Assembly (NCBI GenBank): GCA_031177985.1
Contig: JAPSJW010000002.1
Location: 124,001-188,000, forward strand
DNA: 64,000 nt
Source: Microbacteriaceae bacterium
GTDB lineage: Bacteria > Actinomycetota > Actinomycetes > Actinomycetales > Microbacteriaceae
Direction: 5' to 3'
In this document: in pieces, positions 6,430-15,666 of the stretch
Layout: the number at the start of each line of letters is the position of its first letter
Numbering within the stretch: position 1 is the stretch's first letter
Translations under genes and position numbers: made by a program
Notes under the pieces: model-generated
Seen by the model: the letters and a program-made list of their open reading frames with translations, nothing else
Database searches by the model: none
Told to the model about the DNA's origin: nothing

Positions 6430-8789
6430 CGGCGACGGATGCGACGCGCATCACCGCGGGACCCTGGAACGACTCGACGCTTTCGCTCGAGGAGCGGGTC
6501 TCCGCTCTGATCGCGGAGATGACCACCGAGGAGAAGGTCTCCCAGCTCTACGGGGTCTGGGTCGGCGCCTCCGCGGACGGCGAGGACGTCGCCCCTCACC
6601 AGCACGACATGAGCGAGGAGATCGACCTCGACAACCTGCTGCCGACAGGCCTCGGGCAGCTGACCCGTCCGTTCGGCACGGCCCCGGTCGACCCGGCGGT
6701 CGGTGCGGTCGCGCTGATGCGCGCCCAGCAGCGCATCGCCTCCGCGAACCGCTTCGGCATCCCGGCGCTCGCCCACGAGGAGTGCCTCGCCGGCTTCGCG
6801 ACCTGGGGTGCGACCGCCTACCCGGTGCCGCTCAGCTGGGGTGCGACCTTCGACCCCGACCTCATCCGCGAGATGGGATCGCGCATCGGCGCCGACATGC
6901 GCTCCGTCGGGGTGCACCAGGGCCTCGCACCCGTGCTCGACGTCGTGCGCGACGCCCGCTGGGGGCGGGTCGAGGAGACGATCGGCGAGGACCCGTACCT
7001 CGTCGGCACGACCGCGACCGCCTACATCCAGGGTGTGGAAAGCACGGGCGTCGTCGCGACGCTCAAGCACTTCGTGGGCTACTCGGCCTCCCGCGCCGGA
7101 CGCAACCTCGCGCCCGTCGCAGTCGGGCGTCGGGAGCTGGCGGATGTGCTGCTTCCGCCGTTCGAGATGGCCATCCGCGAGAGCGGGGTGCGCAGCGTCA
7201 TGAACGCGTACACCGACCTCGACGGTGTGCCGACCGCCGCAGACGAGAGCCTGCTCACCGAGCTGCTGCGCAAGGTGTGGGGCTTCGACGGAACCGTCGT
7301 CGCCGACTACTTCTCGATCGCCTTCCTGCGCGACCTGCACCACTCGGTCGCGGACTACACGGCGGCCGCCGAGGCGGCGCTGCGAGCCGGCATCGACGTC
7401 GAGCTGCCGACCGTGAAGACGTTCGGGGCCGCCTTCGTGCGAGCGATCGAGGAGGGGACGGTCGACGTCGCGCTCGTCGACCGTGCGCTGCGTCGAGTGC
7501 TCGTGCAGAAGGGGCAGCTCGGGCTGCTCGATGCCGACTGGTCGCCGGTGCCCTCGGCGCTCGGCTCCCAGGGCGACGCTCCCGAGGATGTGCGGGGCAC
7601 CGTCGACCTCGACTCCGTAGGCAACCGCGACCTGGCCCGGCGCATCGCCGAGCAGGCGGTCGTGCTCGTGCGCAACGACGGCGTGCTGCCGCTCGCCGAG
7701 CCGCGCACGGTCGCCCTCATCGGACCGACCGCCGAGGACCCGCTCGCGGTGCTCGGCTGCTACTCGTTCCCTGCGCACGTGGGGGTGCGGCATCCCGAGA
7801 TCCCGTGGGGCATCGAGCTGCCGACGCTGCGCGAGGCGCTCGAGGAGGAGTTCGCCGACGCCGCCTTCGTGGTGGAGCACGGCACGAGCATCGACGGGGG
7901 CGAGCGCGACGGCTTCGACGCCGCCGTGAGCGCCGCCCGCGAGGCCGACGTCGTCATCCTCGCTCTCGGCGACCGCGCAGGACTCTTCGGCCGCGGCACG
8001 AGCGGCGAGGGCTGCGACGCCGCGTCGCTCGACCTGCCGGGAGCGCAGGCGCAGCTGCTCGAGGCGGTGCTCGACACGGGCACGCCGACTGTCGTGACGC
8101 TGCTCTCCGGGCGTCCGTACGCCCTCGGGCGCGCGGCGACGGATGCTGCGGCGATCGTGCAGACCTTCTTCCCCGGCGAGGAGGGCACCCGCGCGATCGC
8201 GGGCGTGCTGAGCGGGCGCGTGAACCCGAGCGGCCGCCTGCCCGTGTCGATCCCGAAGGACCCGGGCGCGCAGCCGTCGACCTACCTCGCGTCGCCGCTC
8301 GCCCGGCGCACCGAGGTGTCGAACATCGACCCGACGGCCGCATTCCCCTTCGGCCACGGCATCGGCTACACGACGTTCGAGTGGGACGGCGTCTCCTCGA
8401 GCGGTGATTCCCTCGCGACGGATGGTTCGGTTTCGGTCTCGATCACGGTCGCCAACACCGGCTCGCGTGCAGGCGCCGAGGTCGTGCAGCTGTACCTGCA
8501 CGATCCGGTCACGTCGGTCGTGCAACCGGTGCGCCGACTGATCGCCTACCGCCGGCTGACCCTGCAGCCGGGGGAGCGGGTTCGGGCGTCGTTCACGGTT
8601 CCCGCCGACCTCACGAGCTTCACCGGCATCGCCGGCGACCGCATCGTCGAGCCGGGGGAGCTCGCGCTCGAGTTCGGACGCTCCAGCGCTGACATCGTCG
8701 CCTCCGTGCCGATGACAGTCACGGGCGACACGCGGGTGCTCGACCACACGCGCCGCCTCCACGCCGAGGTGACCGTCAGCGGAGAGTGA
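6426..8789 (+). CDS. Glycoside hydrolase family 3 (probable beta-xylosidase/beta-glucosidase)
   Basis: A 787-residue GH3 enzyme without a signal peptide, so it acts in the cytoplasm on imported sugar. The N-terminal GH3 barrel contains RWGRVEETIGEDPYLVG, the K-H pair LKHFVGYS and the nucleophile in VVADYFSIAF (Asp294). The C-terminal alpha/beta domain and a fibronectin-III-like end (LFEFGRSS-type, here LALEFGRSSADI) complete the usual order. The segment GYSASRAGRNLAPVAVGRRE is what I associate with actinobacterial BxlA-like beta-xylosidases, but beta-glucosidase activity cannot be excluded. It is coupled by ATGA overlap to the permease genes, making the operon import-then-hydrolyse. Confidence 0.9.
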   Translation: MTATDATRITAGPWNDSTLSLEERVSALIAEMTTEEKVSQLYGVWVGASADGEDVAPHQHDMSEEIDLDNLLPTGLGQLTRPFGTAPVDPAVGAVALMRAQQRIASANRFGIPALAHEECLAGFATWGATAYPVPLSWGATFDPDLIREMGSRIGADMRSVGVHQGLAPVLDVVRDARWGRVEETIGEDPYLVGTTATAYIQGVESTGVVATLKHFVGYSASRAGRNLAPVAVGRRELADVLLPPFEMAIRESGVRSVMNAYTDLDGVPTAADESLLTELLRKVWGFDGTVVADYFSIAFLRDLHHSVADYTAAAEAALRAGIDVELPTVKTFGAAFVRAIEEGTVDVALVDRALRRVLVQKGQLGLLDADWSPVPSALGSQGDAPEDVRGTVDLDSVGNRDLARRIAEQAVVLVRNDGVLPLAEPRTVALIGPTAEDPLAVLGCYSFPAHVGVRHPEIPWGIELPTLREALEEEFADAAFVVEHGTSIDGGERDGFDAAVSAAREADVVILALGDRAGLFGRGTSGEGCDAASLDLPGAQAQLLEAVLDTGTPTVVTLLSGRPYALGRAATDAAAIVQTFFPGEEGTRAIAGVLSGRVNPSGRLPVSIPKDPGAQPSTYLASPLARRTEVSNIDPTAAFPFGHGIGYTTFEWDGVSSSGDSLATDGSVSVSITVANTGSRAGAEVVQLYLHDPVTSVVQPVRRLIAYRRLTLQPGERVRASFTVPADLTSFTGIAGDRIVEPGELALEFGRSSADIVASVPMTVTGDTRVLDHTRRLHAEVTVSGE

Positions 8790-8791
8790 CG

Positions 8792-8843
8792 CATCCGGGG
8801 AGGCTCGGGCGGGTGCAGTTGTCGCCTCGATCCTCCCCGGATG
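8792..8843. terminator. Large inverted repeat after the GH3 gene
   Basis: CATCCGGGGAGG and CCTCCCCGGATG form a perfect 12-bp inverted repeat with a 28-nt loop, starting three nt after the GH3 stop codon. It probably ends the operon. There is no T tract, so an mRNA-stability or repeat-derived role is also possible. Confidence 0.6.
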
Positions 8844-8927
8844 TTACCCGGGTTCCGCTCACCTTCGGGAGTACGGTGTCCAGCGGCGGGCATGGAGTTC
8901 GCCGCTCGAACCGCCTCGGGAGCCGAC

Positions 8928-9140
8928 ATGACCACAGACACGCAGAACTCGACGCACAGCACCGCATCGCGCCGCACCGACAGACTCTGGGCGGGGATCA
9001 TCGCCTCACTGGTCGTGGTGGGAGTGCTGATGTCGGTGGGGTTCTGGCTGCTCACCGGGTCGTGGGGGTCGTTGTCGCTGGGCGTGCAGGTGCTGCTGGT
9101 CGCCGTGATCGTGGCGGCGATTCGCTCCGTTCGACACTGA
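8928..9140 (+). CDS. Small two-span membrane protein, unknown function
   Basis: A 70-residue protein with a Thr/Ser/Arg-rich N-terminus followed by two hydrophobic segments (WAGIIASLVVVGVLMSVGFWLL and LGVQVLLVAVIVAAI) and a short basic end. The ATG was preferred over an upstream in-frame ATG because a GGGAG SD lies six nt before it. It follows the GH3 operon and its hairpin and is convergent with the LacI gene. Family unknown to me. Confidence 0.6.
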   Translation: MTTDTQNSTHSTASRRTDRLWAGIIASLVVVGVLMSVGFWLLTGSWGSLSLGVQVLLVAVIVAAIRSVRH

Positions 9141-9146
9141 CGCCGC

Positions 9147-9192
9147 GCATCCGTCGTCTCTGACGCGCCGCATCCGTCGTCTCTGACGCGCG
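9147..9192 (+). repeat. Two tandem copies of a 23-nt sequence
   Basis: GCATCCGTCGTCTCTGACGC is followed directly by a near-identical copy, so the word occurs twice in tandem just after the small membrane protein gene. Each copy carries GCATCCG, the heptamer that is common across the window. Confidence 0.6.
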
Positions 9193-9247
9193 AGGTTAGG
9201 GTTTTGGCCCCTATCCGAGACGGATAAGGGCCGAAAGTCGAACCTCG
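9191..9247. terminator. Strong bidirectional stem-loop between convergent genes
   Basis: The outer arms CGAGGTT and AACCTCG enclose an inner hairpin, GGCCCCTATCCG-AGA-CGGATAAGGGCC (11 of 12 pairs). The 5' side carries GGTTTT and the 3' side GAAAG. The position between the rightward small membrane gene and the leftward LacI gene fits a shared terminator. Confidence 0.65.
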
Positions 9248-9255
9248 ATGCGGAG

Positions 9256-9294
9256 TTGGGGTTTCGATACGCCGCGCTTCGCGGGCTACCCAAC
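9256..9294. repeat. REP-like palindromic repeat, copy 1
   Basis: Reads GGGGTTTCGATACGCCGCGC then TTCGCGGGCTACCCAAC. The GTyTCGrTAyGC...GCTAC frame recurs at 11105, 11161 and 12641, each time in or next to a gene end. This copy abuts the LacI stop codon. Confidence 0.5.
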
Positions 9295-9302
9295 GCCGCG
9301 AG

Positions 9303-10325
9303 TCAGGCCGCCGCGGGCGGCGCCGTGCTCGCGCGCACCACGAGGCTCGTCGCCAGGTCCATGCGGGGGATCGTCGCGAGCGGCGCCTTGCTCATCTGCA
9401 GCACGAGCTTCGCGGCCTCGACGGCCATCTGCTTGAGCGGCTGGTGCACCGTCGTGAGTCCGGGGCTCACCCAGCGCGCGAGCGGGATGTCGTCGTAGCC
9501 GACGACCGACAGGTCCTCCGGAACCCGAATGCGCCGCTCCCGCGCCGCCTCCAGCACGCCGAGCGCCTGCAGGTCACTTCCCGCGAAGATCGCGGTCGGA
9601 GGGTTGTCCGAGTCGAGCAGCTCGGACGCGATCCGGTGCCCGCCCTCGACCTGGAAGTCGCCGAACCGCACCCAGCCCTGCTCGATGCGCAGTCCGGCCT
9701 TGTTCATCGCGGAGCGGTATCCGTCGACCCGTGCGAGCGAGCACATCATGTCCTCGGGTCCGCTGATCGTCGCGATGCGGGTGTGGCCGAGCTCGATGAG
9801 ATGACGGATGGCGGAGAGACTCCCCGACCAGTTGGCCGACCCGATCGACGGAACGTCGGGCGACGGGTCGCCCGCGGGGTCGACGATGACGAACGGGATC
9901 GCCCTCGACTTCAGCATCGTGCGGTACTGCGGCGGCAGATCCGAGAACACGAGAACGACGCCGACCGGTCGGCGGCGGAGCACGCCCTCGACCCACTCCG
10001 GTCCGGGGGAGTGGCGGTCGCCGCTCTCGGTCAGCACGACGCTGAGGCCGTTCGCTGCGGCGACGTCCTCGACGCCGCGGATGATCTCCATCGACCACGA
10101 GGCCTGAAGCTCGTGGAACACGACCTCGATGAGCTGGGTGCGAGCCTGCCCGGTGTTGCGGCGGTTGTAGCCCCGCTGCTCGAGCAGTGCCTCCACCCGA
10201 GCTCGGGTTGCGCTCGAAACATCCGTGCGTCCGTTGAGCACTTTCGAGATCGTCGAGAGGCTCACTCCCGCCTCTTCAGCGACAAGGGAGAGGGTCACAC
10301 GCTCGGACGGGTCAGTGGTGCTCAC
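9303..10325 (-). CDS. LacI-family transcriptional repressor of the sugar operon
   Basis: A 340-residue LacI/GalR regulator. The HTH (residues 10-55) reads VTLSLVAEEAGVSLSTISKV then LNGRTDVSSATRARVEALL, including the hinge-helix region; the rest is the periplasmic-binding-like effector domain, ending DLATSLVVRAST as usual. The start is GTG with TACACT (10337-10332) six nt upstream, so probably leaderless. A CGAAACTATCG operator lies between its -35 and -10, and a matching site controls the ABC/GH3 operon, so it most likely represses both itself and the operon until the imported sugar binds. Similar regulators are BxlR and CebR; the effector is not deducible from sequence. Confidence 0.9.
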   Translation of the reverse strand: MSTTDPSERVTLSLVAEEAGVSLSTISKVLNGRTDVSSATRARVEALLEQRGYNRRNTGQARTQLIEVVFHELQASWSMEIIRGVEDVAAANGLSVVLTESGDRHSPGPEWVEGVLRRRPVGVVLVFSDLPPQYRTMLKSRAIPFVIVDPAGDPSPDVPSIGSANWSGSLSAIRHLIELGHTRIATISGPEDMMCSLARVDGYRSAMNKAGLRIEQGWVRFGDFQVEGGHRIASELLDSDNPPTAIFAGSDLQALGVLEAARERRIRVPEDLSVVGYDDIPLARWVSPGLTTVHQPLKQMAVEAAKLVLQMSKAPLATIPRMDLATSLVVRASTAPPAAA

Positions 10326-10344
10326 GGTGAGAGTGTACGCGCGC

Positions 10345-10355
10345 CGAAACTATCG
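10345..10355. promoter_or_regulatory. Operator-like site CGAAACTATCG upstream of the LacI gene
   Basis: Matches the operon operator CGAAACTTTCG at 10 of 11 positions. Two half-site-like TTTCGATGA words follow at 10362 and 10372. It sits about 20 nt upstream of the predicted start of the leaderless LacI transcript, so it fits autorepression. Confidence 0.6.
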
Positions 10356-10470
10356 CGCCTCTTTCGATGATTTTCGATGATCGTGCGGTTTCGTGAACAC
10401 CAGTGTCCGGCCCGTCCCGGAAGCCTTCGCCTCGGGTGAACCTTCCCAGGCCAGCCAGCGATACTCTCCC

Positions 10471-10530
10471 TTTTCCGTTCCTGCCGTCGGAGTCAATTGA
10501 CGCCGACGGCAGATAGAGAAAGGCGAACTA
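10471..10530. repeat. Long palindromic element with CAATTG core, copy 1
   Basis: The 32-bp core (10481-10512) is CTGCCGTCGG-a-GTCAATTGAC-g-CCGACGGCAG, palindromic but for one mismatched pair, with looser pairing in flanks rich in T (left) and A (right). Read on the minus strand it begins at the TAG stop codon of the VTT gene. A second copy, inverted relative to this one, is at 28031-28103. It may act as a terminator, but conservation of core and flanks in two places suggests a dispersed element. Confidence 0.75.
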
Positions 10531-11046
10531 CGATTCGAGCGAGGGTGGTGCGGGAGGTGGGGCGCCCGGAGCCATGTACTCGGGGGCCGAGGCGGCCGCG
10601 CGACGCCGCGCGGTGCACCACCAGAACGCGCCGAGCGCTGCCAGCACGAGCAGCAGTGCTCCGAAGCCCCAGGGCGAGGTGATCGCCGCCCAGATCGCGG
10701 CGAGCCCTACCGTCGCGTAGATGACGCCGTAGAGCGCGCAGCCGGGCAGCATCGCGAGCGTGAAAACCCACCACCGCATCCGGCTCGCACCGGCGACCGC
10801 GTTCATGACCGACTTGAAGCCGATCGTGAAGTAGCTGAGGGTGACGATCGGCGGGCCGTAGCGGCGCAGCAGGTCGCTCGCTCGCTCGGCTTTCGGGCCC
10901 TTCAGCCAGCGTCCCCAGCGGAGGGAGCCGGCGCCGGCGACCGCTCCGCGGGCGATCCAGTAGGTGGCCTGCGACCGGGCGAAGACGATCGCCGTTGCGC
11001 CGACCAGGATCACCCAGAACCCCTGGCCCGCGAGCGCCTCTTCCAT
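10528..11046 (-). CDS. VTT/DedA-type small membrane protein
   Basis: A 172-residue protein with about four hydrophobic spans. The DedA/VTT hallmark is LRRYGPPIVTLSYFTIGFKS followed by VMNAVAGASRMRWWVF, with the re-entrant glycine/arginine pattern of that family (lipid scrambling, undecaprenyl-phosphate or small-molecule transport). It ends in an Ala/Pro-rich tail. The start follows GGAAGG, 11 nt upstream, so it has a leader. The stop codon is the first triplet of the palindromic element copy 1. Exact function unknown. Confidence 0.75.
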   Translation of the reverse strand: MEEALAGQGFWVILVGATAIVFARSQATYWIARGAVAGAGSLRWGRWLKGPKAERASDLLRRYGPPIVTLSYFTIGFKSVMNAVAGASRMRWWVFTLAMLPGCALYGVIYATVGLAAIWAAITSPWGFGALLLVLAALGAFWWCTARRRAAASAPEYMAPGAPPPAPPSLES

Positions 11047-11104
11047 GTCGGTGCCAACCTTCCGTCGCGGGTCGATCATTCCAGTGCGCGGGCGGCGGGG
11101 GAAC

Positions 11105-11153
11105 GGGGTCTCGGTACGCGTGCCGCTGTGCGGCGCGCTACTCGCCCCGCGGG
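11105..11153. repeat. REP-like palindromic repeat, copy 2
   Basis: GGGGTCTCGGTACGCGTGCC followed by GCTGTGCGGCGCGCTACTCG and CCCCGCGGG; it pairs imperfectly with itself. It shares the GGTCTCGrTrcGC...GCGCTaCTCGaCC frame with copies at 11161 and 12641. It lies in the gap between the VTT gene and the MarR gene. Confidence 0.6.
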
Positions 11154-11160
11154 CGGCCGC

Positions 11161-11225
11161 GGTCTCGATATGCGTCCGGCGAAGCCGGGCGCTGCTCGAC
11201 CCGCGCGAGCCGGGCGCTGGTCGAC
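11161..11225. repeat. REP-like palindromic repeat, copy 3 with partial duplicate
   Basis: GGTCTCGATATGCGTCCGGC then GAAGCCGGGCGCTGCTCGAC, followed by a second partial unit GAGCCGGGCGCTGGTCGAC. The stem GCGTCCGGC/GCCGGGCGC surrounds a short loop. It directly precedes the end of the MarR gene. Confidence 0.6.
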
Positions 11226-11233
11226 CGACGGGC

Positions 11234-11725
11234 CTAGTCGCCCTCGTACTCCGCGATCCAGCGGGTGAGGATGCGCTCGAGCGCCGCACGGTCTGTCGCG
11301 CTGAGCGACGACAGCAGTCGCTCTTCGTTGGCGAGGTGCTCGGTGAACGCCCCGTCGATGAGGTCGCGGCCCTTGTCGGTGAGCGCGACGACCCGTCCAC
11401 GCCCGTCGACCTCGCTCACCCGGCGGGTGACGAGACCAGCTCCCTCGAGGCGGTCGAGTCGTTTCGTCATGCCCCCCGTCGTCACCATCGTGTGCGCGGC
11501 GAGCTCTCCCGCGGCGCGCTCGAACGGGGCGCCTGCGCGACGCAGCGTCGCCAGCACGTCGAAGTCGCCCTCGCTCAGCCCGTGCCTGCTGTAGACCGTC
11601 AGGAGCTCCTCGGTGAGGTAGCCAGCGAGGCGGTGCAGGCGTCCGATGATGCCCTGCGGGCTCGGGTCGAGGTCGGGGCGCTCGCGGCGCCACTCCTCCT
11701 GGATCTGCGCGGTTCGATCGGCCAC
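11234..11725 (-). CDS. MarR-family transcriptional regulator
   Basis: A 163-residue winged-helix regulator. It shows the MarR layout: an N-terminal dimer helix (PQGIIGRLHRLAGYLTEELL), the HTH (LSEGDFDVLATLRRAG ... MVTTGGMTKRLDRLEGAGLV) and the wing TRRVSEVDGRGRVVALTDKG with the conserved D-x-R pattern. The start is GTG with an AAGGGG SD. It is divergent from an EamA transporter and the 39-nt gap holds an 18-bp palindrome, so it likely controls that exporter in response to a small molecule. Confidence 0.9.
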   Translation of the reverse strand: MADRTAQIQEEWRRERPDLDPSPQGIIGRLHRLAGYLTEELLTVYSRHGLSEGDFDVLATLRRAGAPFERAAGELAAHTMVTTGGMTKRLDRLEGAGLVTRRVSEVDGRGRVVALTDKGRDLIDGAFTEHLANEERLLSSLSATDRAALERILTRWIAEYEGD

Positions 11726-11764: not shown

Positions 11765-12883
11765 GTGGAAGGTAATCTGCGCTGGGCTCTCGTCACGGCG
11801 ATCGCGCCGGTGGCATGGGGGTCCACCTACTTTGTCACCCGCGAGTTCCTCCCGGCCGACGCCCCGCTCTGGGGTGCCGTGCTGCGGGCGCTCCCCGCCG
11901 GCATCATGCTGCTGCTCCTGCGACGACGGATGCCGCGCGGCGCCTGGTGGTGGCGGAGCCTCGTGCTCGGCGTGCTCAACGTCGGAGCGTTCTTCGTGCT
12001 CGTGTACCTCGCGGCGCAGCTCCTGCCCTCGAGCATCGCGTCGACCGTGATGGCGACCTCGCCCGTGGCGATGATGCTGCTCGCCTGGCTGCTGATCGCC
12101 GAGCGTCCGCGCTTGCTCTCCCTCGTGGCGGCGGGAGTCGGCATCGCCGGCGTCGCCCTGCTGCTGCTGACGAGCGCCGAAGGCATCCGCTGGGACGGCG
12201 TGCTCGCCTCGGTCGCCGCACTCGCGATGTCGTCGGTCGGCTACATCCTCGCCAAGCGCTGGAACGGGCCGTCGATCGACCTCATCGCGTCGACGTCGTG
12301 GCAGCTCGTCGCCGGAGGGCTCGTGCTCGTGCCGATCGCGGTCGCGGTCGAGGGCGGGCCGCCCGTGCTCGACACCCCCGCGCTGCTCGGCTTCGGGTAC
12401 GTGTCGTTCGTCGCGACGGCGGTCGCCTTCGTCGCCTGGTTCTCGGGCCTGCGAAAGCTCCCCGCCGGCACGGTCGGCATCATCGGGCTGCTCAATCCGG
12501 TGGCGGGCGTGCTGCTCGGGGTGCTGGTCGCCGGAGAGACCCTCGTCGGCCAGCAGATCGGCGGGCTCGGGCTCGTGCTGATGGGCGTCCTCCTCGGGCA
12601 GCCGGCGGTGCAGGAACGGATGCGGGGGCTCGGCGGGCAGGGTCTCGGTGCGCGTCCGGCTGCGCCGGGCGCCACTCGACCCGCGGGTGTTGCGCCGGGC
12701 GCTGCCCGAGCGGCAGAAAAAGGCTACGGCGTGGGGACCGGAGTGGGCTCCGGAACGGTCGTCGGCTCCGGGGTCGGGGTCGGCGCGGGCGCCGGCTCCT
12801 CCGGTGCGGGCTCCTCCTCGACAGGCGCGGGCGCGGTGGGCTCGGGCGCGGGCTCCTCGTCCGCGGGAGCCTCCTCCTCCTGA
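11765..12883 (+). CDS. EamA/DMT-family transporter with repeat-derived C-terminal tail
   Basis: A drug/metabolite transporter-type exporter with ten predicted spans in two EamA halves (PVAWGSTYFVTREFLP in the first; MSSVGYILAKRWNG opening the second). The start is GTG with TATATT ending seven nt upstream, so leaderless. EamA proteins normally stop shortly after the tenth span (about residue 290, LGQPAVQERMRGL). Here the frame stays open for about 80 more residues: first through a REP-like repeat (from 12641), then through DNA antisense to the end of the neighbouring M50 gene, giving a Gly/Ser/Ala-rich tail. The tail is probably an accident of repeat insertion. Confidence 0.85.
   Translation: MEGNLRWALVTAIAPVAWGSTYFVTREFLPADAPLWGAVLRALPAGIMLLLLRRRMPRGAWWWRSLVLGVLNVGAFFVLVYLAAQLLPSSIASTVMATSPVAMMLLAWLLIAERPRLLSLVAAGVGIAGVALLLLTSAEGIRWDGVLASVAALAMSSVGYILAKRWNGPSIDLIASTSWQLVAGGLVLVPIAVAVEGGPPVLDTPALLGFGYVSFVATAVAFVAWFSGLRKLPAGTVGIIGLLNPVAGVLLGVLVAGETLVGQQIGGLGLVLMGVLLGQPAVQERMRGLGGQGLGARPAAPGATRPAGVAPGAARAAEKGYGVGTGVGSGTVVGSGVGVGAGAGSSGAGSSSTGAGAVGSGAGSSSAGASSS
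12641..12710. repeat. REP-like palindromic repeat, copy 4, inside the EamA frame
   Basis: GGTCTCGGTGCGCGTCCGGC then TGCGCCGGGCGCCACTCGAC and CCGCG, followed by a partial second unit TGCGCCGGGCGCTGCCCGAG. It is the same layout as copy 3, including the trailing partial duplicate. It lies where a normal EamA gene would already have stopped. Confidence 0.6.
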
Positions 12884-15006
12884 CCCGGCAGCGGCGCGGG
12901 AGCAGGAGTCGCGGTCCGAGTCGGTGCCGGGGTCGCGGGGGGAGCACCGGGTTCGACCCCGAGCACCTCGAGAATGCGCGCCTTGTACTCCTCGAGCCGC
13001 GCCTGGATCTGCGACAACGGCACATCGCGGATCGAGGCCCCGAACTCCGCGATCTCCTTCCACAACGCCTCGAGCTCGGCCATGACGTCCTCACCGGGTG
13101 CCTCGTCGAGGGTGATGACGAGCTGGCTGGCGAGCGCGTAGGTGACGCACTGAACGCATCCGTAGTTTGCGGCGGCGGAGAGGTTCTCCGGCACGATGAC
13201 GTCGGCCTGCCCGACGATCAGCACCACCTGGAAGGCGACGGCGACGGCCGCGCATCCTTCGCAGCTCGCGAACGCGTAGGCCTCGTTCTGGGTGTCGACG
13301 GTCTCGCCCCCCGCCCAGACGAGCGCGAAGGAGACGTCGTACTCGACCGCGCCGTCCTCGGTGGCGACGGCCAGCGCCTGGTTGTCGCCCTCCTCGGGCG
13401 GCTCGGGCGCGTCGAACGGGAACACCCAGGCCGGCGCATCGGACGACGGGTCCGACGGCACGAGCACAACGGCGAGCTGCGCCTCCTCGGCACTGCTCGC
13501 GAGCTCGATGCCCTCGGGCAGCACAGTCACCATGTCGCCCGACGGCAGGGCCGCCCGCGACGGCGAGTTCAGACCCTCCTGCACCGTGCCGGTCTCGACC
13601 GCGCTGATCGGACGGTAGGCGCCCTCGTGCGGCCACCACGCCCAAGCCAGGCCGGCCGCGATCGCGGCGATCAGCGCGAACGCGAGGGCGCGGCGCACCG
13701 GGCGGCCTTCGGTGCGCGTCCACGCGGCACGGATGCCGCGCGTCGCCACCCGCACGAGCAGGTAGACGACGCCGATGACCGGCAGCGCGATCGCGAGGAG
13801 GGCGAGCCCGCGAGCGGCGGCGCCCGCGAGGTCTCCGCCGTCGGCGTGCGCCGTGAGGGCGGCGTACTGGTCGCCGGCGCTCGCGATCGCGGTTCCGATC
13901 ACCCGCGGAAGAGCGAGCACCAGCAGTGCCAGCGTCAGCAGGAGGAGCGGCACGACGGTGAGCACCCAGACGGTGATGATCGCGCGCGCCCAGGGCTTGA
14001 GCTCCCGCGCTCGCGGGTCGCCCGGACGGACGAGGCCCTTCAGGGTCGGGCCGATGCGCGAGAAGAGGTCGGGCACGCCGGTGAGGTCGGCGAGCAGGTG
14101 GTAGCCGTCGAAGCGGACGAGCGGCAGCAGCTGCCGCAGCATCAGCAGCAGCTGCGCGGCGATGATGAGCAGCAGCGCGTCGTTGCGCGAGAACCACCAC
14201 ACCGCGCCGAGCACGACTGCGACGATCGCGTTGAAGTAGAGGCCGCCCAGGTCGGTGCGCAACCGGCCCCAGCGGTTCAGTCGGTAGGAGTCGGTGACGT
14301 CGGTGTAGAACGCCGGCCAGATCAGGTAGAGCGCCGCGCCCATGGCGCCGGGTTTCGCGCCCGCCCGTGTCGCGGCGGCCGCGTGGCCGAACTCGTGGAA
14401 GCCGGCCGAGAGGATCGTGATCGCGAAGACCAGCAGCAGAAGGCCCGGGTCCTCGAAAGCCTGACGCGTCGCATCCGCCAGCCCCTCGACGAAGAGCAGC
14501 CAGCCCGTGACGAGAACGAAGGCGGCGAGCACCGGCACGACCACGAAGGGGGAGAAGAGCGCCGCGAAGGGCCGCGCGAGACGCTGGGTGGTCTCGGGGC
14601 TCGTCATCCGCATCCGCGCACGCATGCCCAGCAGGGTGTCGCTGCGCTTCACCTCGGGCTCCGAGCCGTCGGCGAGCTTCAGCACGCCGTAGGGCAGCAG
14701 GTGCTGGGAGATGAGGGTCGCGACGTCACCGCGCGTCACGTCCTTGCCGGTGCGCTGGGCGACGGATGCCGCGATCGCGTCGAGATCGCGGCGACCGTCG
14801 ATCGCCTCGAGGGTCGCGTAGAGCAGCGGGGTCAGCTGCACGGTCTGCCCGTCGGCGCGCTGCACGAGCGCCGGCGGGGTGCGGTAGCCGGAGTGCTGCA
14901 GCTCGCCGATCAGCTGCACGCCGTCGGCGCGCTGGGGGACCGGCGGGACGGCATCCGGGACGGCGGGGCCGCCCGAGAGGGGCGACCCCGCCTGGCGGGT
15001 GGTCAT
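12724..15006 (-). CDS. PqqD-like/M50 membrane metalloprotease with CxxC-bearing extracytoplasmic domain
   Basis: A 760-residue multidomain protein. Residues 35-112 look like a PqqD-type winged helix (QLTPLLYATLEAIDGRRDLD) of the kind that binds peptide substrates. Residues 150-460 are membrane-embedded with a site-2-protease signature: HEFGH at 204-208 and FDGYH at 299-303 (third zinc ligand Asp300). Residues 465-640 are extracytoplasmic with two CxxC pairs (C582/C585 and C617/C620). A helical stretch (640-685) and a Pro/Glu/Thr-rich tail follow. It starts three nt after the stop of the repeat-protein gene, so the two are co-translated. Processing or export of that neighbour is inferred. Confidence 0.8.
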   Translation of the reverse strand: MTTRQAGSPLSGGPAVPDAVPPVPQRADGVQLIGELQHSGYRTPPALVQRADGQTVQLTPLLYATLEAIDGRRDLDAIAASVAQRTGKDVTRGDVATLISQHLLPYGVLKLADGSEPEVKRSDTLLGMRARMRMTSPETTQRLARPFAALFSPFVVVPVLAAFVLVTGWLLFVEGLADATRQAFEDPGLLLLVFAITILSAGFHEFGHAAAATRAGAKPGAMGAALYLIWPAFYTDVTDSYRLNRWGRLRTDLGGLYFNAIVAVVLGAVWWFSRNDALLLIIAAQLLLMLRQLLPLVRFDGYHLLADLTGVPDLFSRIGPTLKGLVRPGDPRARELKPWARAIITVWVLTVVPLLLLTLALLVLALPRVIGTAIASAGDQYAALTAHADGGDLAGAAARGLALLAIALPVIGVVYLLVRVATRGIRAAWTRTEGRPVRRALAFALIAAIAAGLAWAWWPHEGAYRPISAVETGTVQEGLNSPSRAALPSGDMVTVLPEGIELASSAEEAQLAVVLVPSDPSSDAPAWVFPFDAPEPPEEGDNQALAVATEDGAVEYDVSFALVWAGGETVDTQNEAYAFASCEGCAAVAVAFQVVLIVGQADVIVPENLSAAANYGCVQCVTYALASQLVITLDEAPGEDVMAELEALWKEIAEFGASIRDVPLSQIQARLEEYKARILEVLGVEPGAPPATPAPTRTATPAPAPLPGQEEEAPADEEPAPEPTAPAPVEEEPAPEEPAPAPTPTPEPTTVPEPTPVPTP

Positions 15007-15009
15007 CGG

Positions 15010-15666
15010 CTACTGCTGCAGGTCGGACTGCTGGTTCGACTCCGCGGTCGCGTCGCCCACGATCGACTGCTCGATGATGACGTCCTGATCCGAGATGGCG
15101 GTCGCGTTGCTGTCGATCGACCCGATGTTCGCGGCCACCGCGGCGTCGATCGGAGCAGCCACGTTGGCGTTCGCCGCGACGGCTCCGTTGATCGGAGCCG
15201 CGATGTCGGCGTCGGCGTTCAGGTCGACGTTCACATTGAGCAGGTTGCCGTCGAGCAGTCCGCCGGTTCCGGTGCCGACGGTGCCGCCGGTCGCGAGGGC
15301 GTCCGGCACGATCTCCTCGTCCGTCGCGGCGCCCTCGTCGGCGGTCTGGTCGATCACGCTGTCCTGCTGGGCGTTAGCGGTCGCGTCACCCTCGATGCCC
15401 TGGGTGATCATCGCGCCCTGGTCGGAGAGCGCCTGAGCCGTCGAGCCCTCCGAGAGGAGGTTGGCCGAAGCCGCGGCGTCGATGGGGGCGGCGACGTTCG
15501 CGTTCGCCGCGATGCCGAGGTCGATGGGAGCCGCAGCTCCGATGTCGAGGTCGAGGTCCGCGTTGAGGTCGAGGATCGACGCGACCTCCTTGTCGGGAAG
15601 GGCCGTGACGCCCTCCGCCTCGAGATCGGCGGCCGAGAGGCCCTTGCTCTGGTTGTCGATCGTCAT
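15010..15666 (-). CDS. Acidic internally repeated protein, putative substrate of the adjacent M50 protein
   Basis: A 218-residue acidic protein with no Cys, no transmembrane helix and no classical signal peptide. It is an internal duplication: residues 33-107 and 145-218 align. Each half has two 14-residue units of the form xAAPI(D/N)xxxAANAN (44-57, 58-71, 155-168, 169-182), then SDQ...ITQ/IEQ...GDATA...Q..S...Q. The halves are joined by a Gly/Thr-rich linker. The ATG was chosen because GGAGGAG lies immediately upstream. I do not recognise a named family. Lying upstream of a PqqD/M50 protein makes it a candidate for a processed or exported product, perhaps a surface or matrix protein. Confidence 0.7.
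   Translation of the reverse strand: MTIDNQSKGLSAADLEAEGVTALPDKEVASILDLNADLDLDIGAAAPIDLGIAANANVAAPIDAAASANLLSEGSTAQALSDQGAMITQGIEGDATANAQQDSVIDQTADEGAATDEEIVPDALATGGTVGTGTGGLLDGNLLNVNVDLNADADIAAPINGAVAANANVAAPIDAAVAANIGSIDSNATAISDQDVIIEQSIVGDATAESNQQSDLQQ

Follow-up and report, generated by a model that had tools for sequence, protein, structure and literature searches.

What does an intramembrane protease do with a long, strongly acidic repeat protein that is encoded directly ahead of it? The window, which is the whole 64,000-nucleotide stretch of actinobacterial DNA analyzed here, raises this question with two genes on its minus strand. ORF calls place a 218-residue acidic repeat protein first and a 760-residue PqqD-like/M50 protein second. 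The repeat gene ends in TAG at 15010-15012 and, after three spacer bases (15007-15009), the M50 gene starts with ATG at 15004-15006 in the same frame, which is the three-nucleotide spacing given in the original prediction. We found no paper on this pair in the literature outside subscription journals.

15010 to 15666, minus strand: repeat gene (putative cargo or precursor), 218 residues; an ORF with an HMM match upstream of M50 in 80 of 80 related loci
12724 to 15006, minus strand: RRE (PqqD-like)-M50 membrane protease with fused CxxC domain, 760 residues; from ORF, profile scores, alignment, structure model, and fold comparison

The repeat protein has a putative leader and two core blocks

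The repeat protein had been described as two aligned halves built on AAPI units, and the alignment bears this out. The halves match without gaps at an offset of 111 over 78 residues (about 29-107 versus 140-218), with a BLOSUM62 score of 194; shuffling the protein 200 times gave at most 65. Four AAPI units are present (P47, P61, P158, and P172). With 36 D/E residues versus 2 K, the protein is strongly acidic, and it contains no Cys, Trp, Phe, Tyr, His, or Arg. It also lacks a hydrophobic stretch, which is unusual for the substrate of an intramembrane protease.

15538 to 15666, minus strand: putative leader, residues 1-43, with LPDKEVxSxLDLN near-invariant at 23-35; from conservation, and common to short single-core peptides and unrelated cores
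15496 to 15537, minus strand: 14-residue unit 1, AAAPIDLGIAANAN; internal repeat analysis
15454 to 15495, minus strand: 14-residue unit 2, VAAPIDAAASANLL; internal repeat analysis
15346 to 15444, minus strand: predicted beta segment of half 1, residues 75-107 (S-A-A-Q-I-Q-I-A-A-Q-S-I-Q, alternate residues conserved); conservation and AlphaFold
15163 to 15204, minus strand: 14-residue unit 3, IAAPINGAVAANAN; internal repeat analysis
15121 to 15162, minus strand: 14-residue unit 4, VAAPIDAAVAANIG; internal repeat analysis
15013 to 15111, minus strand: predicted beta segment of half 2, residues 186-218, alternating as in half 1; conservation and AlphaFold

In both beta segments, every second residue is conserved over 33 residues. 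Mean column entropy is 0.56 versus 1.52 in the first half (permutation p 0.0007) and 0.38 versus 1.79 in the second (p below 1e-4). An extended strand whose functional residues all face one side would show this pattern. For the cargo on its own, AlphaFold predicts 31-residue strands at 76-106 and 187-217 with pLDDT 60-69. Foldseek found no match to this low-confidence model, a result that carries little weight. Searches of Pfam, NCBIfam, and PDB sequences returned nothing above cut-off for the cargo, for the short precursors described below, or for the CxxC domain. Among 30 cargo members there was no Pfam curlin match at E values up to 10, and other amyloid families were likewise unmatched. 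We attribute weak matches to Gasdermin, GLTT, Rhodopsin, and Hsp33 to sequence composition and discount them.

The protease joins a PqqD-like domain, an M50 core, and a CxxC domain

The larger protein had been read as a PqqD-like domain, an M50 protease with HEFGH and FDG motifs, and two CxxC pairs. All of these motifs are present, and fold comparison backs both named domains.

14677 to 14934, minus strand: PqqD-like/RRE domain, residues 25-110; bbb-aaa topology at pLDDT about 90, and a match to 5v1u_B TbiB1 at Z 4.2
13630 to 14580, minus strand: membrane region with the M50 site-2-protease core, residues 143-459; hydropathy and fold comparison
14383 to 14397, minus strand: HEFGH zinc motif, residues 204-208; invariant in the first four proteins aligned
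14104 to 14112, minus strand: FDG motif, residues 299-301; invariant in the first four proteins aligned
13036 to 13374, minus strand: putative extracytoplasmic domain, residues 545-657, with two N.A.A...CxxC...A.A.Q repeats; alignment, and split forms in other lineages
12727 to 12954, minus strand: Pro/Thr-rich C-terminal tail; from sequence, and like the tails of relatives and of several split M50 proteins

The HExxH and DG catalytic motifs of an M50 site-2 protease are both intact. Over 42 aligned rows, the H, E, G, and H of HEFGH and the D and G of FDG are invariant, and the CxxC pairs (582/585 and 617/620) are invariant among the first four aligned proteins. Pfam scores are below the gathering cut-offs for both PqqD (PF05402, 13.1 versus 23.4 bits) and M50 (PF02163, 16.1 versus 27.2 bits). 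Despite these scores, comparison of the predicted folds supports both assignments. For the M50 core, RseP, SpoIVFB, and mjS2P fill the top six rows (Z 7.2-7.7), and Foldseek placed 3b4r first, with a probability of 0.95 but an E value of 0.24. The N-terminal domain has the bbb-aaa winged-helix topology by which an RRE is defined here (PMC12710340). It matches TbiB1 (5v1u_B) over 82 of 86 residues at an rmsd of 2.9, with a Z of 4.2 that is modest and is exceeded by other winged-helix domains. The region thus folds, in the model, as the PqqD-like winged helix that had been proposed.

The repeat gene accompanies the protease across actinobacteria

We scanned named genomes with the M50 alignment and kept the best 80 of 273 relatives. 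Arthrobacter and Pseudarthrobacter dominate these 80 loci; further hosts are Agromyces, Naasia, Mycetocola, Pedococcus, Phycicoccus, Nocardioides, Mycolicibacterium, Kribbella, Actinokineospora, Saccharothrix, and others. A repeat gene lies directly upstream on the same strand in every one of the best 80, and none of the 80 upstream proteins contains Cys or Trp. In 41 of them the cargo and M50 frames are continuous, with the cargo stop as the sole interruption. Viewed from the other gene, sampling of the order and the phylum gave 19 full-length repeat genes, each with an M50 gene adjoining; the order sample contributed such genes from 13 of its 396 genomes. The expected co-occurrence of the two genes is therefore complete among these relatives, and more distant M50 genes stand beside other leader peptides, as described below.

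Several loci deserve separate mention. Two cargo-HMM matches in the order sample (L110 and L111, E about 0.003) have no adjoining M50 gene and lie in long low-complexity frames, and we do not count them as members. One Arthrobacter genome carries a second, partial M50 relative (254 bits; L042 4304-5101, plus strand) upstream of a normal pair. The pair also occurs in a MAG labelled Chloroflexi (L079), reflecting either transfer or a binning error. A phage search gave no relatives, and the only plasmid relatives are on two Streptomyces plasmids.

The neighborhoods bear on whether the cargo is a true RiPP, in which enzymes from other parts of the genome would act on it ahead of leader removal by the M50 protease. 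An RRE, a conserved leader, a variable core, and an M50 leader peptidase are together RiPP-like, and the nearest named families are the daptide and epipeptide proteases. However, the 80 loci share no recurrent modifying enzyme within about 6 kb, and none was seen in the distant loci that we inspected; the same holds for the daptide-type oxidative decarboxylase, aminotransferase, and methyltransferase. The protease scores below the daptide and epipeptide equivalog cut-offs, and the residues missing from the window's cargo leave few common modification targets. We consider a true RiPP unlikely. The original prediction is partly supported: neither of its two refuting conditions held, but the pair does not look like a classical RiPP system, since no modifying enzyme recurs.

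We saw no recurring ABC transporter and no exporter encoded near the pair. The recurrent neighbors in the 80 loci, named by eye, are prolyl oligopeptidase-like, acetate kinase-like, and phosphotransacetylase-like genes; we rejected these as operon partners because they reflect synteny within one genus.

Distant relatives pair one leader with many cores

A phylum search with the repeat profile led to arrays of short ORFs. Most encode peptides of 64-77 residues in runs of two to four, mostly beside an M50 gene. Each peptide consists of one leader (like LSAEELEAQxGExLPDREEMSLINAN) and one core (like VAAPVNAAVAANVLSDDSVAYANAEQDVDIDQST), and the two to four peptides that accompany a protease are near-identical. 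The original prediction had remarked that the window's precursor is far longer than usual. These short leader-plus-one-core relatives account for its odd length: the window holds a fused form, with two core blocks per precursor and with the protease and CxxC domain in one chain, of what distant lineages encode as single-core arrays and a separate CxxC protein.

A single-protein M50 query of a 296-genome phylum sample gave 26 matches at 197 bits or more. We read eleven of these loci closely, picked mainly where no AAPI-type array had been seen. A leader-motif peptide, recognized by HMM or by eye, stands beside the M50 gene in ten of the eleven, and the cores differ widely. Three loci (L176, L177, and L181) have a Cys-containing core of the VPIGVAANVCG type; no CxxC partner was detected in their genomes, G660 (L176 and L177) and G555 (L181). 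Four (L172, L175, L179, and L180) have the hydrophobic core LLGIPLLG...GPNWLL beside the protease, and these peptides look membrane-active. The remaining cores are basic and Tyr-containing (L173), AVAQSQATQAINVHQ (L174), and of a further type (L178). Only L182 departs from this: the peptide there is basic and leaderless, and the AAPI array of that genome is on another contig. Two leader-motif peptides were also found at L130, where the PqqD-M50 frame (8467-11256, plus strand) runs stop-free into ParA/MinD-like ATPase sequence, as a fusion or an overlapping start.

The leader motif kept in distant relatives is ELE.Q...LPxRE. A leader-only HMM trained solely on AAPI-type precursors ranked peptides near M50 genes, with unrelated cores, in its nine top places among 929 ORFs from 12 distant loci; the best unrelated ORF among 5366 flank ORFs had an E value of 0.012. 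The leaders of L179 and L180 were recognized by eye only. Two Streptomyces plasmids, found independently, have the same layout. One encodes a MNTDQLDAETAELLPGREAL... peptide followed in order by the protease and a CxxC protein, each carrying a hypothetical-protein annotation; the other encodes FEELNKLAGELLPERAVL... peptides ahead of a protease. A conserved leader with a free core is the hallmark of precursor peptides, and this RiPP-type trait is present here in small precursors.

These arrays also bear on a regulatory role, in which the leader of the repeat protein would occupy the RRE and gate M50 cleavage of another membrane substrate by regulated intramembrane proteolysis. The cargo lacks a hydrophobic segment, and the obligate 1:1 pairing and close spacing would suit an inhibitor or adaptor. 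Moreover, M50 proteases such as RseP, among the closest solved folds here, perform regulated cleavage. However, two to four near-identical short peptides per protease look like products, as do unrelated cores behind one leader type, and no shared second substrate recurs in the neighborhoods. We judge a regulator unlikely.

The CxxC domain tracks one type of cargo

The CxxC domain consists of two N.A.A...CxxC...A.A.Q repeats. Five array loci encode it as a protein of its own, and wherever the start can be placed clearly, the N-terminus is hydrophobic and signal-like. This split form and the hydropathy of the fused one support an extracytoplasmic placement. A small lipoprotein-like gene without a Pfam match directly follows the CxxC gene in three loci (L132 4997-5842, plus strand; L138 5666-6442, minus strand; L140 5961-6764, minus strand). 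Among 21 genomes, a CxxC partner is present in 11 of 15 whose cargo has the A.A..Q.I.Q face and in none of 6 with other cores (Fisher p 0.004, shared ancestry ignored). Three MAGs of one family (G555, G608, and G746) and G549 have this cargo type and no detectable CxxC protein; distant genomes are often incomplete, and absence from such genomes is weak evidence. The CxxC pairs would not serve to form disulphides in the cargo, which is free of Cys. We infer that the domain handles extended cargo segments outside the cell.

The cargo might be an amyloid- or beta-solenoid-like surface material, in which the extended segments, once processed, would lie edge against edge and the CxxC domain would act as template or anchor. 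The part that CsgB plays for CsgA is a loose parallel. The alternate-residue conservation in both halves, the long predicted strands, and the N.A.A / A.A.Q face of the CxxC repeats, with its tie to cargo type, all point this way. So do the basic leaderless peptides of the same core pattern encoded at several distant loci. Against it stand the low pLDDT of the strands and their unmatched fold, the lack of a match to curlin or any other amyloid family, and the four genomes with this cargo type and no detectable CxxC protein. We hold this proposal to be possible but tentative. It extends leader-guided processing and partly overlaps with it, and is not an exclusive rival.

The basic leaderless proteins are small, have the core pattern AGAVNAVVAANVNEPGRSVSRVSSRQRIVQR, and adjoin acidic peptide arrays or the protease. 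They occur at L135 (10607-10897, minus strand), L138 (9828-10055, minus strand), L134 (1804-2064, plus strand), L133 (8740-8988, plus strand), and L182 (4263-4520, minus strand). Such a protein is a possible, oppositely charged partner of the cargo. A search of the window's genome, run without a positive control, found none.

The leader is more ordered when modeled with the protease

We modeled cargo and protease as one AlphaFold chain, reading the TAG as Gln, together with the 41 relatives of the same arrangement. In this fusion model the leader has a defined helix (12-17), strand (20-23), and second helix (25-34), and residues 34-237 are below pLDDT 50. The RRE has strands at 251-255, 266-269, and 275-278 and helices at 280-288, 295-306, and 312-326 (fusion numbering). 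Of the leader elements, only helix 12-17 appears when the cargo is folded alone, and the 20-23 and 25-34 blocks have pLDDT 85 and 70 in the fusion versus 70 and 54 in the cargo. Since a DSSP strand needs a partner and the remaining cargo is disordered in the model, the leader likely docks onto the protease. That this helix forms without the protease, leaving the leader partly ordered on its own, counts against the processing model given below.

A proposed model of leader-guided processing

Taken together, these results favor a self-contained module for leader-guided propeptide processing, in which an RRE guides M50 cleavage and the cargo is released. We put its probability at about 70%. The cargo would be synthesized in the cytosol with an N-terminal leader, at about residues 8-35 (L..EL.A...ALPDKEVxSxLDLN), that is captured by the PqqD-like RRE at the N-terminus of the protease. 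The site-2-type core would cut just past the leader, putatively around residues 33-45, and the freed cargo would exit to the outer side. There it may be received or organized by the CxxC domain, which the last transmembrane helix and the Pro/Thr-rich tail would keep on the outside. In this lineage the cargo would comprise two fused core blocks, each with its AAPI stretch in duplicate and a 33-residue extended beta segment behind it; protease and CxxC protein form one fused chain.

Binding, cleavage, export, and the role of the CxxC domain are what we infer; the computation itself gives gene coupling, leader conservation with core variability, the RRE and S2P folds, the catalytic motifs, split and fused forms, and the beta alternation. 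The cargo itself probably stays unmodified and acts as a structural or surface peptide, in contrast to a classical RiPP antibiotic. A bolder and doubtful version is an undescribed, large class of actinobacterial leader peptides served by one RRE-M50 protease without modifying enzymes. One branch would have multi-core polyproteins and a CxxC template, and a single membrane protein there would recognize, cut, and export the cargo and nucleate a beta-rich surface polymer.

With one protease, one cargo, and no further parts, the pair would be a minimal testable system, and nature supplies, in its split and fused forms, constructs with which to take RRE-directed intramembrane proteolysis apart. The leader motif offers a genome-mining handle for many unrelated short cores, and proteins so far annotated just as hypothetical gain a name and a hypothesis.

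Comparison with known systems

The closest parallels are two peptide-maturing proteases. MpaP is described as an RRE-dependent intramembrane peptidase responsible for removing the daptide leader, and a C-terminal Thr is invariant in daptide precursors (PMC10036551). Like MpaP/DapP (NF041824), the window protease has an N-terminal RRE fused to an intramembrane site-2 protease, and small leader peptides, with ELE in the leader motif, are encoded beside such proteases. However, it scores 101.9 against a cut-off of 300 bits, its cargo has 218 residues in two halves without a conserved C-terminal Thr, it carries an additional CxxC domain, and no BCDM enzymes or transporter are nearby. For EpeP, a role in both cleavage and export of EpeX has been proposed (PMC10885120). 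The EpeP/YydH/LiaK family (NF058609) shares an M50 protease with proposed cleavage and export of its own peptide, but the score here is 37.2 against 225 bits, and the radical-SAM epimerase and EpeAB-like transporter are absent nearby. On sequence, the window protease is outside both families by the curated cut-offs.

Individual parts have other counterparts. Its predicted bbb-aaa winged helix resembles the RRE domains of PqqD and TbiB1, which bind leaders in known systems, but it is under the Pfam PqqD cut-off and shares its chain with a protease and an outer CxxC domain. RseP, SpoIVFB, and mjS2P share the HExxH and DG motifs and the membrane core fold; the window sequence, in contrast, is under the Pfam M50 gathering score. 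The substrates of those proteases are membrane regulators or pro-sigma factors. Curli CsgA/CsgB serve as an analogy only, with alternating Gln/Ala/Ile extended segments and a possible template partner; here, there is no sequence family match, the hosts are Gram-positive, and no curli secretion genes were seen nearby.

The genomic pattern, seen in many soil actinobacteria, suggests that the protease releases the repeat cargo and hands it on to the cell surface, a maturation close to that of some antibiotic peptides, with a new cargo and without chemical-modification enzymes. If this is right, RRE-guided recognition and M50 cleavage would reach beyond modified antibiotics, as a widespread two-gene module for protein maturation in Arthrobacter, Pseudarthrobacter, Nocardioides, Mycolicibacterium, Streptomyces, and other actinobacteria.
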